Shown here: positions 1,272 through 60,785 of the stretch, in pieces
How the letters are laid out: the number at the start of each line of letters is the position of its first letter
Numbering within the stretch: the stretch's first letter is position 1
Assembly: GCF_030296755.1 (NCBI RefSeq)
Contig: NZ_AP027741.1
Span: 868,001-932,000 of the forward strand
Direction of reading: 5' to 3'
Length of the DNA stretch: 64,000 bases
Origin: Methylophaga marina
Lineage (GTDB): Bacteria > Pseudomonadota > Gammaproteobacteria > Nitrosococcales > Methylophagaceae
Notes under the pieces: generated by a model
Seen by the model: only the letters and a program-made list of their open reading frames with translations
Told to the model about the DNA's origin: nothing
Databases searched by the model: none
Translations under genes and position numbers: made by a program

Positions 1272-2639
1272 TTAGAAAGGAAGGCCTCCACCCATCGGAA
1301 ATTTACCACCTAAACCTCTCATCATTTTGGCCATCCCGCCTTTAGAACCCATCTTCTTCATCATTTTTTGCATCTGGCTAAACTGTTTTAGAAGACGATT
1401 CACATCTTGAATTTGTGTGCCACTCCCCGCGGCAATTCTTTTTTTGCGCGAGCCTTTAATAATTTCAGGCTTTTGTCGTTCTTTCTTCGTCATGGAATTG
1501 ATAATAGCTTCGAGCTTGGCTAACTCTTTATCATTCACCTGCTGTTTAGCCGCAGCCGGAATATTCCCCATGCCAGGCATTTTTTCCATTAAAGAACCTA
1601 TTCCGCCCATCTTGCCCATTTGGCGCAATTGTTCCTGAAAATCTTCCAGGTCAAAGCCTTTACCTTTTTTCAGTTTATTAGCCAGCTTTTCTGCCGAGCC
1701 AACATCCATTTTACGCTGAGCTTCTTCGACCAATGACAGCACATCGCCCATTCCGAGGATTCGTGAGACAACACGATCAGGATGGAAAGGTTCAAGTGCC
1801 GCTGTTTTTTCACCCACCCCCATAAACTTAATGGGTTTACCAGTAATATGTCTTATTGATAAGGCAGCACCACCACGAGCATCACCATCTGTCTTAGTGA
1901 GAATGACACCTGTCAGGGGTAAGGCTTCATTAAATGCTTTTGCGGTATTCGCGGCATCTTGGCCGGTCATACTATCGACGGTAAATAACGTTTCAATCGG
2001 ATTAATAGCAGTATGAATCTGCTTAATCTCATCCATCATGTCATCATCGATATGCAATCGACCAGCCGTATCAATGATGACCACATCGACATAATCTCGC
2101 TTTGCTTGCTCTATGGCATCACGAGCGATATCAACCGGATTTTGTGAAGACTGGCTGGGGAAAAATCGAGCATCAACTTCTTTTGCAAGTGTTTCTAATT
2201 GATCAATCGCGGCAGGTCGATAAACGTCCGCACTAGCGACCATGACAGATTTACGCTCACGTTCTTTTAGCCATCTAGCTAACTTCGCCACACTGGTTGT
2301 TTTACCTGCACCTTGTAGGCCAGCCATTAAGATTACAGCGGGTGGCTGGGTATTAAGATTCAGTGATGAAGAGCCATCGCCCATGACAGCGACGAGTTCA
2401 TCATTAACGATTTTTACTAAAGCCTGACCTGGCGTTAAACTACGGAGAACATCTTGCCCCATCGCGCGTTCTTTGACATTTTCAATGAACTCGCGCACCA
2501 CGGGTAGAGCGACATCAGCCTCAAGTAATGCCATACGTACTTCACGAAGTGTTTCTTTGACATTTTCTTCAGTGATACGTCCCTGACCACGAATTTTTTT
2601 GAGTGTACTGCCGAGTCTATCGCTTAAGCTATCAAACAT
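1272..2639 (-). CDS. ffh: Signal recognition particle protein Ffh
   Basis: Ffh is the GTPase of the bacterial signal recognition particle. With 4.5S RNA it brings ribosomes making inner-membrane proteins to FtsY. The 455-residue product has the helical N domain, the P-loop GLQGAGKTT near residue 107, DTAGRLH, TKTDGDARGGAAL, and a methionine-rich M domain (about 300-455) ending KFPMGGGLPF. The length is normal. It heads the minus-strand group ffh-rpsP-rimM-trmD and is divergent from the YpjD-type gene, an arrangement seen in other gammaproteobacteria. Confidence 0.97.
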   Translation of the reverse strand: MFDSLSDRLGSTLKKIRGQGRITEENVKETLREVRMALLEADVALPVVREFIENVKERAMGQDVLRSLTPGQALVKIVNDELVAVMGDGSSSLNLNTQPPAVILMAGLQGAGKTTSVAKLARWLKERERKSVMVASADVYRPAAIDQLETLAKEVDARFFPSQSSQNPVDIARDAIEQAKRDYVDVVIIDTAGRLHIDDDMMDEIKQIHTAINPIETLFTVDSMTGQDAANTAKAFNEALPLTGVILTKTDGDARGGAALSIRHITGKPIKFMGVGEKTAALEPFHPDRVVSRILGMGDVLSLVEEAQRKMDVGSAEKLANKLKKGKGFDLEDFQEQLRQMGKMGGIGSLMEKMPGMGNIPAAAKQQVNDKELAKLEAIINSMTKKERQKPEIIKGSRKKRIAAGSGTQIQDVNRLLKQFSQMQKMMKKMGSKGGMAKMMRGLGGKFPMGGGLPF

Positions 2640-24278: not shown

Positions 24279-24752
24279 TTAGGCGGTTAAAGAAACATGG
24301 CGTTTAACATTAGTTTCAAGGCTTAACGCTTCTTTATCGTTTATTTGAGCTGAACTCCTCGCTTTGGGTTTCTGATTAATTGTATCGATATCACTCACCA
24401 ACACACCGACATCATCAACACGAAGATTGTATGCTTGAGGCCGTTTTTCTGGCTTGCCATCATTCGCCTGTATTCGTATAGCTAGCTCATTAGCGAGTTC
24501 ATATTGCTTATTAGGAATTACGCCTTGGCCATCTATTATTTCGTTGGCATCATTTTGCAATGGAAAAGAAGATTTATTGTTATTGGCTCGACTTTCCGCT
24601 ATCTGCTGAAGCGCTTTTTCTATCGTGTCTTTATCAAGAAAGCTTTGCTCTTCTTCATTCAACTTTGCATAAATAGCATTGGCCTTCTCAGTTATATTCG
24701 TTGACCTTGAATATTGATAATGCAGATTATTAGATAGACCGTTTATAGCCAT
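24279..24752 (-). CDS. Hypothetical protein (unrecognised, 157 residues)
   Basis: A hydrophilic 157-residue product with no signal peptide, membrane segment or cysteines. It is rich in Asn, Gln, Lys, Asp and Glu (KANAIYAKLNEEEQSFLDKD; SFPLQNDANEIIDGQG) and looks partly disordered. I recognise no family. It converges on the CpxA-like gene with only 5 bases between the two stops. A reasonable AGGATAAGGG ribosome site precedes the ATG, and a 16-base perfect palindrome lies about 30 bases further upstream. Its coding potential is supported by uninterrupted length and plausible residue use only. Confidence 0.55.
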   Translation of the reverse strand: MAINGLSNNLHYQYSRSTNITEKANAIYAKLNEEEQSFLDKDTIEKALQQIAESRANNNKSSFPLQNDANEIIDGQGVIPNKQYELANELAIRIQANDGKPEKRPQAYNLRVDDVGVLVSDIDTINQKPKARSSAQINDKEALSLETNVKRHVSLTA

Positions 24753-24799: not shown

Positions 24800-25029
24800 G
24801 TCACTTAGTTATCTCACACTATATTTCTATTAACTTATTGATAATAGACAGGAAAAAGTAAACCTATGTAAAAGCATGTAAAGGACTCATGAACACACGG
24901 AGCAGAGAAATGACGCTGATTTGTAGCCTAACAACGCTGCCTAAACAAAAAATATGATCTTTTTCTATGAGTTAAGCAACTGACTTAAATAGAGAAATAC
25001 TAAACCTCCAATTAATTTCAAAAAACTAC

Positions 25030-25058
25030 TTGCTAATTTAAATGATAATCATTATCAT
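25030..25058 (+). promoter_or_regulatory. Fur-controlled sigma-70 promoter
   Basis: TTGCTA at 25030-25035 and TATCAT at 25053-25058 are separated by exactly 17 bases. Laid over the spacer and -10 is a perfect 7-1-7 Fur box: TGATAAT (25043-25049), one base, ATTATCA (25051-25057). Fur with iron bound there would block RNA polymerase. The predicted start is near 25064, and no gene with a ribosome site begins directly after it. The transcript meets a strong terminator about 105 bases on. Confidence 0.82.
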
Positions 25059-25063
25059 TATTA

Positions 25064-25169
25064 ACCGATGGAGTTGATAGGAATTTGTGACAACAAAGGC
25101 CGACCTACTCCCTCTCTCTTAAATCTGAAAACCGAGTTTGTTGCCAGTCTTTTGGCTGGCAACTTTTTT
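25064..25169 (+). ncRNA. Candidate Fur-repressed small RNA (RyhB/PrrF-like)
   Basis: A predicted transcript of about 106 bases running from the Fur-box promoter to a Rho-independent terminator. It has an unstructured-looking middle with a C/U-rich stretch (CUCCCUCUCUCUU, about 25117-25130) able to pair with purine-rich ribosome sites. That is the typical seed of iron-responsive sRNAs such as RyhB and PrrF. The 3' end is a GTTGCCAG/CTGGCAAC stem with six T. Length, promoter and terminator agree with the class. Expression and targets are not shown; it could instead be a leader attenuating msrB. Confidence 0.6.
25140..25169 (+). terminator. Rho-independent terminator of the candidate small RNA
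   Basis: GTTGCCAG (25140-25147) pairs perfectly with CTGGCAAC (25156-25163), with an 8-base loop and six T (25164-25169). It lies about 100 bases upstream of msrB and follows no protein gene on the plus strand. Confidence 0.92.
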
Positions 25170-25271
25170 CAGTCACTCCCCGTCGATGGCTTTCAAAAAA
25201 TCCCTTTGAGCTGATTTTTCTACGTGTTTTGCCTACAATGTTATTTTTTCTAGGTACAACTTTGACAAAAA

Positions 25272-25670
25272 ATGCCCGACAAACTGATAAAATCTGACGC
25301 TGAATGGCGTGAAGAACTGAGCGAAGATCAATTTTATGTAACGCGTCAGTCTGGCACAGAACCCGCATTCTCTGGCATCTACGTCGATCATGATGATCAA
25401 GGCGTCTATAGATGTACCTGCTGTAAACAAGCCTTGTTTTCGTCTGAAAATAAATTCGATTCTGGTTGCGGCTGGCCAAGTTTTTCTGCTCAGATATCTC
25501 ATGGCGTGGTCAACCATCTGGCCGATCACAGTCATGGCATGGACCGAACAGAAGTACGCTGTCAACACTGTGATGCACACTTAGGTCATATCTTCGACGA
25601 TGGTCCGGCACCGACAGGGCTTCGTTATTGTATTAATTCGGTAGCACTCGATTTTGACGACCAAAACTGA
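25272..25670 (+). CDS. msrB: Peptide-methionine (R)-S-oxide reductase MsrB
   Basis: MsrB reduces the R form of methionine sulfoxide in proteins. The 132-residue product has both zinc CxxC pairs (YRCTCCKQ and VRCQHCDAH), the CGWPSF motif, and the catalytic cysteine in [11 protein letters not shown]. Length is typical of the cytoplasmic single-domain form. A -10-like TACAAT (25234-25239) precedes it and may be its own promoter, separate from the Fur-box promoter upstream. The next gene overlaps its end by 17 bases. Confidence 0.96.
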
Positions 25671-60413: not shown

Positions 60414-60430
60414 TCGATGATGACATGTTA

Positions 60431-60785
<355 letters not shown>

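Follow-up and report, generated by a model that had tools for sequence, protein, structure and literature searches.

The question raised by positions 25030–25169 is whether this intergenic stretch encodes a small RNA that is released when iron is scarce. The window, i.e. the whole stretch of 64 000 nucleotides that was analysed, corresponds to positions 868001–932000 of a single-contig 3.1-Mb Methylophaga genome, referred to as G000. An iron-responsive small RNA under a Fur box had been proposed for the site in the initial annotation, and this interpretation is supported, the iron response itself being a prediction. The locus very probably encodes a Fur-repressed, trans-acting, iron-sparing sRNA that would act by blocking ribosome binding. 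Its anatomy, its conservation, its complementarity to mRNA leaders and the co-occurrence of such sites with the RNA were observed.

The promoter was located by direct reading and by a promoter scan of the plus strand, exactly as annotated, with a −35 element TTGCTA (25030–25035) and a −10 element TATCAT (25053–25058) separated by a 17-nt spacer; 9 of 12 positions match the consensus, and TT of the −35 element was present in 9/9 and TTG in 8/9 aligned members. Although it was the sole promoter-like site found within 24800–25400, the match by itself is no evidence, because shuffled sequences yield 1.6 such sites on average. Overlapping the −10 element is TGATAATCATTATCA (25043–25057, plus strand), a perfect 7-1-7 inverted repeat of 15 bp that was likewise confirmed by reading and scan, and which is a predicted Fur-binding site. 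No other site in the 64 kb agrees with TGATAATNATTATCA at every position, the closest ones having two mismatches, and its ATCATTA (25048–25054) was unchanged in 9/9 aligned members, G009 among them. A Fur box lying over the promoter is expected of the class of Fur-repressed iron-sparing sRNAs, and the putative box here has this position and is conserved in relatives. At the other end, a terminator scan and the alignment identified an intrinsic terminator on the plus strand (25140–25169), consisting of a ten-pair stem GTTGCCAGTC-TTTT-GGCTGGCAAC at 25140–25163 followed by six T at 25164–25169; its place and T run agreed with the initial annotation, which had given the stem 8 bp. No other terminator was found within 24800–25400 (shuffles 0.4), and in G013 the stem is rewritten into a different one that still forms nine pairs.

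With the start taken from the −10 element and the end from the terminator, an sRNA of ~105 nt is predicted at 25065–25169 on the plus strand, in line with the ~106 bases proposed earlier, and its folding z-score is −3.83. It is flanked by a gene on the minus strand for a 157-aa protein unmatched in both Pfam and NCBIfam at E ≤ 0.001 (24279–24752), and on the plus strand by msrB (SelR domain; 25272–25670), which is a neighbour and not part of the RNA and has its own conserved TACAAT at 25234–25239. The MsrB protein is 100% identical to that of Methylophaga isolate SAT92, 92% to that of M. aminisulfidivorans and 90% to that of M. sulfidovorans. The earlier statement that no protein gene with a ribosome site lies between promoter and terminator needs qualification, since a 48-aa ORF (25068–25214) runs through the unit; the frame from the same start is, however, kept in 0/9 other members compared, and the short intergenic unit ending at the terminator holds no ORF common to all members. 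That the unit is instead a Fur-controlled gene encoding a very short peptide, or that the RNA has a dual function, with a frame ending in LPLS-stop within the core, is unlikely. A possible start for a frame through the core is present in 7/10 members compared: in G006, G005 and G013 a shared 13-aa frame opens with ATG, is preceded by GGAG at a distance of 7 bases and closes with ALTLPLS-stop; the frames of the others open with GTG in G000 (ending LLPLS), with TTG in G004, and with ATG in G015 (ending LPLSKV) and G009 (ending ISL). Against this, G022, G014 and G012 have no ATG-, GTG- or TTG-started frame of that kind, the subgroups disagree in start codon, in length and in the sequence preceding LPLS, conservation of the core extends to either side of the stop codon, and LPLS arises from the conserved pyrimidine tract itself. 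A start codon, ribosome site and frame conserved across the members, as would be expected of a dual-function RNA, were not found, although the G005/G006/G013 subgroup may be an exception.

For conservation, 58 relatives were searched by BLAST with the 156-bp unit, ahead of any covariance model, and matches were obtained in 8 other Methylophaga (E 2.6e-12 or better), comprising near full-length copies in 4 same-genus genomes, 3′-half matches in 3 and a 71%-identical copy in 1. The unit is present in the cultured strains M. aminisulfidivorans MP and M. sulfidovorans. Mean pairwise identity over 8 members reached 96% in the core, 77% in the terminator and 75% across promoter and Fur box, and was 53% in the 5′ arm with its loop, as against 34% in the upstream and 45% in the downstream flank; judged on the alignment, this block pattern of high element and low flanks is that expected of an sRNA gene and more than chance would give. 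A covariance model of the transcript alone (R1) detected 10 of 24 Methylophaga genomes at E ≤ 1.4e-13, with one match per genome; eight of these ten had trained the model, and G014 and G079 had not. A divergent 11th copy was found in G009, also outside the training set, at E 0.017. R1 gave no match at E ≤ 1 in 39 other genomes of the family and order, and over 369 genomes of the class it gave two matches only, both in Methylophaga and none outside the genus, in searches of a size at which weak members could be missed because the filters are stricter. The G009 copy is convincing by its place and its own elements: it directly precedes the same ABC-F gene and has a Fur-like box, a GAUGG/CCAUC hairpin, UCUCUCU and a GCCAGCC terminator. 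Box, seed and terminator are therefore conserved in relatives, as the proposal of an sRNA had called for, in 10/24 Methylophaga and in the divergent G009.

A second model (R2) was built with G009 in the training set, which is the only reason for the high R2 score of G009. Over the 24 genomes of the genus R2 found no further member; the 19 weak-match loci inspected had no CTCTCTC or TCTCTCT within 300 bases of the match; and with filters off, 97 kb around abcF in G007, G016, G008, G019 and G011 gave nothing at E ≤ 1. A plasmid search for the unit gave no match. Weak R1 matches in G007 (E 0.10) and G008 (E 0.17) were rejected, as the matched stretch holds no CTCTCTC; the one in G007 looks like a terminator after another ORF. 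The 13 Methylophaga genomes in which the RNA was not detected include G001 (55% complete) and G010, G018 and G019 (68–85% complete), and absence is not claimed for G001, because of its completeness, nor for G002 and G003, where the place lies beyond the contig end. On a ccoN tree, from which G004, G010 and G021 were left out and in which several deep nodes are weakly supported, the clear RNA-bearing members group together along with G002 and G003, and G009 falls in another part beside G008, where nothing was found. Since all of them in this tree but G009 group together, the RNA-bearing genomes are not independent. One possible reading of this distribution is that the RNA is ancestral and has since been lost or has drifted strongly.

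The distribution also bears on the idea that the unit is a cis-acting leader or attenuator of msrB instead of a trans-acting RNA. In the 10 clear members it does immediately precede msrB and share its strand; the strong terminator, however, stops it ~100 nt short of msrB, and msrB retains a conserved TACAAT block of its own. In G009, moreover, the RNA precedes the ABC-F gene with no msrB between, and both msrB and the ABC-F gene are present in other Methylophaga that have no copy of the RNA. This reading is highly unlikely.

Folding placed a 5′ stem-loop at 25067–25114 (plus strand), in which GA-U-GGAGU (25067–25074) pairs with ACUCC-C-UC (25107–25114), so that CUCCC would be hidden. Its loop and inner arm vary between members, and the pairing of the 5′ GA-GGA(G) with the (C)UCC-UC of the core was predicted in 8/8 clear members that were folded. 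Only 2 of 16 predicted pairs differ on both sides, such compensatory change being scarce because the paired bases hardly vary. The near-invariant 32-nt core, ACTCCCTCTCTCTTAAATCTGAAAACCGAGTT, spans 25107–25138 and contains the proposed seed UCUCUCUUAAAU (25113–25124), which is predicted to be mostly single-stranded and is complementary to the leaders of rpe, edd and the encapsulated ferritin gene (encFtn). In the 8 clear members the mean unpaired probability was 0.70–0.72 for the 11 nt from 25113 and 0.19–0.40 for the preceding CUCCC; the corresponding values in G009 were 0.58 for the seed stretch and 0.0 for CUCCC. A possible second pairing block, UGAAAACC (25126–25133, plus strand), complements TTTTCAG-type stretches in some edd and ccoN leaders and is suggestive. 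The C/U-rich stretch noted in the initial annotation does exist, at 25104–25120, ~10 bases away from the 25117–25130 given there. A conserved, predicted single-stranded seed complementary to iron-protein leaders, as is characteristic of the class, was thus found, with exceptions in ccoN, encFtn and edd.

Target sites were searched with several patterns. The first seed pattern, AAGAGAGAGGGAGT, with 2 mismatches allowed in 5 genomes, led to ccoN and gave 47 matches against 93 for the reversed control, i.e. no excess. Complementarity to purine-rich ribosome sites, as described in the initial annotation, is for this reason too loose a description; the informative match includes UUAAAU. Start codons preceded by AGAGAG-RRG were then collected in G000, G013 and G005 with no gene specified beforehand. 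This returned edd and ccoN in all three genomes and encapsulated ferritin in G000; matches against reversed control numbered 12 vs 2 in G013 and 9 vs 3 in G005, and G000 alone shows no excess, because its count was 13 vs 13. The exact 10-mer TTTAAGAGAG, the complement of CUCUCUUAAA, was then searched in 8 RNA-bearing and 8 RNA-less genomes. In the former 58 sites were counted, including 7 that are the RNA gene itself, vs 30 with the reversed control; the latter had 20 vs 46, and in G000 alone there was no excess (8 vs 7). The 71 sites outside the RNA gene were classified. Of these, 20/51 in RNA-bearing genomes and 0/20 in RNA-less genomes lie at gene starts, before a gene-opening ATG with 3–14 nt between (Fisher p 3.9e-4, which overstates the evidence because genomes and sites share ancestry). 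The filter against an in-frame ATG upstream dropped the encFtn sites of G000 and G012 together with five SufU-like sites of RNA-less genomes; these five of the 20 RNA-less sites lie inside the coding start of one gene that we take to be SufU-like. The 20 start sites belong to 8 gene families, namely rpe (7 genomes), edd (5), fabA (2), c-type cytochromes (2), catalase (1), a presumably ZapA-like protein (1) and two unknown proteins (2), half of the families (fabA, ZapA-like and the two unknown) having no known iron link. Identities above cut-off were TIGR01196 for edd, TIGR01163 for rpe, TIGR04535 for the encapsulin-associated ferritin, TIGR00780 for ccoN and TIGR01749 for fabA; catalase was named by Pfam, and the cytochromes are similar to TIGR03874 (methanol metabolism-related), with scores short of its cut-off. 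As a separate observation, a 96–101-aa protein without Pfam match (L388:250-537, minus strand, and L286) has TTTAAGAGAG (G006) or AAGAGAGAGG (G013) just before its start codon.

Unbroken complementarity in the G000 leaders extended over 13 nt in rpe, 13 in encFtn, 12 in edd and 8 in ccoN. For background, 383 G000 leaders were taken from the window and twenty 20-kb stretches; none exceeds 10 nt and 8 reach 8 nt. Added up, the runs in these leaders come to 46, a total that none of 2000 core shuffles reached (mean 20, largest 35), although these run figures measure rarity and are no blind test, because the leaders were found through the complement. It could be argued that the Fur-controlled sRNA is real but that the leader matches are chance purine-rich ribosome sites, its true targets being others. 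Pyrimidine-rich RNAs do pair with many leaders, ccoN pairing is present in genomes without the RNA, and several genes with a site have no known iron link. The run, however, includes UUUAAG besides the purine tract, 0/383 same-genome leaders match 11 nt, the eight RNA-less genomes have no start site, the rpe site is invariant within a diverged leader, and the edd energies do not overlap between RNA-bearing and RNA-less groups. This reading is unlikely, and complementary sites at the starts of iron-linked genes (rpe, edd and encapsulated ferritin), which the initial annotation had suggested looking for, are taken as candidate targets.

The individual candidates differ in how closely they follow the RNA; all duplex energies given below disregard the accessibility of the mRNA site. 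In rpe, TTTAAGAGAG is carried by 7/8 RNA-bearing genomes, and the eleven bases TTTAAGAGAGA of the leader are invariant in the seven, the bases on both sides differing between subgroups. The same leaders hold a conserved TTTCAAAAGCTGAAAAA and an inverted repeat GATAC-GGTAAA-GTATC 45–85 bases before rpe in 7/7 genomes, one base of the repeat being different in G005; in L354 the two are located at 470–510, with rpe at 555. Among the ten clear RNA-bearing genomes, the 12-mer precedes edd in six and a close variant in the four others. Pairing of edd with the G000 core gave −20.5 to −25.9 kcal/mol in all 10; in 9/9 RNA-less genomes read the values were −9.0 to −13.0 (six), −15.6, −15.8 and −18.0 (the last in G008), so that the groups are fully separated. 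The G015 core has two changes and pairs weakly with its own edd (−15.0).

For encFtn the 13-mer was found in G000, G079 and G012, whereas G014 and G022 have a near match; five of the ten clear RNA-bearing genomes, as well as G009, showed no match. encFtn also pairs in G011 (−25.0) and G019 (−22.6), both without detected RNA. In G000 the encFtn gene (L318:1465-1659; C1 ~746440-746637) reads 65 aa and then shifts frame at an A run, whereas G079 and G012 read 96 aa; the frameshift is either a recent mutation or an assembly error. The case of ccoN is weaker, because its leaders pair as well in several genomes without detected RNA (−22.1 in G016, G020 and the incomplete G001 and −20.5 in G007, vs −17.9 in G000 by the same calculation), and duplex energy alone did not single it out, 8/383 background leaders being as good, or 4/383 with shorter leaders. 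A perfect match, TTGATCTAGATCAA, to what we take to be the FNR consensus lies 164 bases before ccoN (L168 ~1644–1657, minus strand), so that this operon may answer to oxygen besides answering to iron through the RNA. GAGAGA sites are kept before encFtn, edd or ccoN in G008, G010, G011 and G019, in which no RNA was detected, edd sites being those of G008, G010 and G011 and encFtn sites those of G011 and G019; either these genomes have an unseen divergent RNA with a CUCUCUC seed, or some matches reflect ribosome-site composition. With respect to iron, Edd has a 4Fe-4S cluster, EncFtn stores iron, and CcoN and catalase hold haem. Edd is also named as an Fe–S enzyme in the BrrF study (PMC7377471). 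The iron link of Rpe is conditional, because the enzyme can use Fe(II) or manganese, and a review argues for manganese in vivo under oxidative stress (PMC9936198).

The proposed mechanism is as follows. Fe-Fur bound at 25043–25057 would exclude RNA polymerase, and iron scarcity would lift this repression and release the ~105-nt RNA. The 5′ stem-loop would hide CUCCC and leave UCUCUUAAAUCUGAAAACC open, and the open seed could then pair with the leader bases that immediately precede the start codons of rpe, edd and encapsulated ferritin, with ccoN (cbb3 oxidase) as a possible target and catalase and a methanol-metabolism-type c-type cytochrome as candidates in single species. Pairing would keep ribosomes off the rpe, edd and encFtn mRNAs, with or without decay by RNase E, and the expected outcome would be a lower demand for iron and less iron storage. 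In this scheme we infer transcription, Fur binding, any role of Hfq and the repression itself.

Rpe and Edd catalyse steps in the rearrangement and cleavage arms of the ribulose-monophosphate/Entner–Doudoroff route. We tentatively suggest, as a plausible reading that falls short of probable, that an iron-sparing RNA has here been wired into one-carbon metabolism, with rpe and edd as the best-conserved targets and the cbb3 oxidase, a methanol-type cytochrome and the encapsulated ferritin beside them. If so, iron shortage would directly throttle methanol assimilation, either in addition to the usual TCA-cycle targets or in their place. The RNA is a candidate iron-responsive regulator for a genus of marine methanol users, and its list of targets, which includes two enzymes of central sugar-phosphate metabolism, can be tested. 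It would add one more iron-sparing plan that, by Rfam thresholds, is unrelated in sequence to RyhB and PrrF. The presence and absence of the RNA within one genus, and likewise of seed sites in the same leaders, may offer a natural system in which an sRNA regulon is forming or decaying.

Known families were searched with the whole window against Rfam 15 at gathering threshold. Only bacterial RNase P RNA class A was returned, at 60430–60784 on the minus strand (327 bits), and no family at the sRNA locus. In the covariance search of RyhB and PrrF families that had been recommended with the initial annotation, no family reached its gathering score. RyhB (RF00057; gathering 55 bits) was not detected at the window locus at E ≤ 10 and scored 14.8 bits, a chance-level value, in the G015 transcript. 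PrrF (RF00444; gathering 90 bits) was the best Rfam match for the window locus, at 24.2 bits. Six further loci were scanned: the one in G015 gave a full-length PrrF match of 34.7 bits, and the other five had none at E ≤ 1. That the RNA is a distant member of the PrrF family is quite unlikely, as both scores lie below gathering, no match is left for the window or G015 transcripts once promoter and Fur box are omitted, and R1, with its strict filters, found no intermediates outside Methylophaga in the 369 class genomes. In titles and the opening parts of abstracts on sRNA, iron limitation and Fur in Methylophaga and methylotrophs, a survey with subscription papers and preprints outside its range, no such RNA is reported.

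Classic RyhB has the layout hairpin–seed–terminator. RyhB of E. coli is a Fur-repressed sRNA that silences iron proteins under iron scarcity (PMC9936198); the Methylophaga RNA would share this role, with a different seed and, so far, different main targets. In the alignment, PrrF of Pseudomonas is alike in having a TTGAC-type promoter with a Fur box, a CUCC-type pyrimidine region and a terminator in the same order, and is unlike in that the score of 24–35 of 90 bits is lost without the Fur box and that the Methylophaga RNA has one R1 match per genome. BrrF of Burkholderia is also a low-iron sRNA, and edd is reported to be regulated in a BrrF-dependent manner, a precedent for the silencing of edd by such an RNA, with catalases among the predicted targets; it differs in lying in the 3′ end of hemP with no Fur box of its own, and most of its predicted pairings avoid the Shine–Dalgarno sequence (PMC7377471). 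IsrR of Staphylococcus, likened here by its description, has C-rich regions able to pair with ribosome-binding sites of iron-protein mRNAs, but these are three in number, and it belongs to another phylum (PMC11257911). The targets reported for HrrF of Haemophilus are different, being molybdate uptake and deoxyribonucleotide and amino-acid synthesis, and HrrF establishes that lineage-restricted Fur-controlled sRNAs without similarity to the classic ones occur (PMC4144887). The Methylophaga RNA is predicted to work like RyhB, PrrF, HrrF or IsrR, yet lies outside the RyhB and PrrF sequence families by Rfam thresholds; because lineage-restricted Fur sRNAs are already established, it would be of a known kind and of a family new to Rfam 15.
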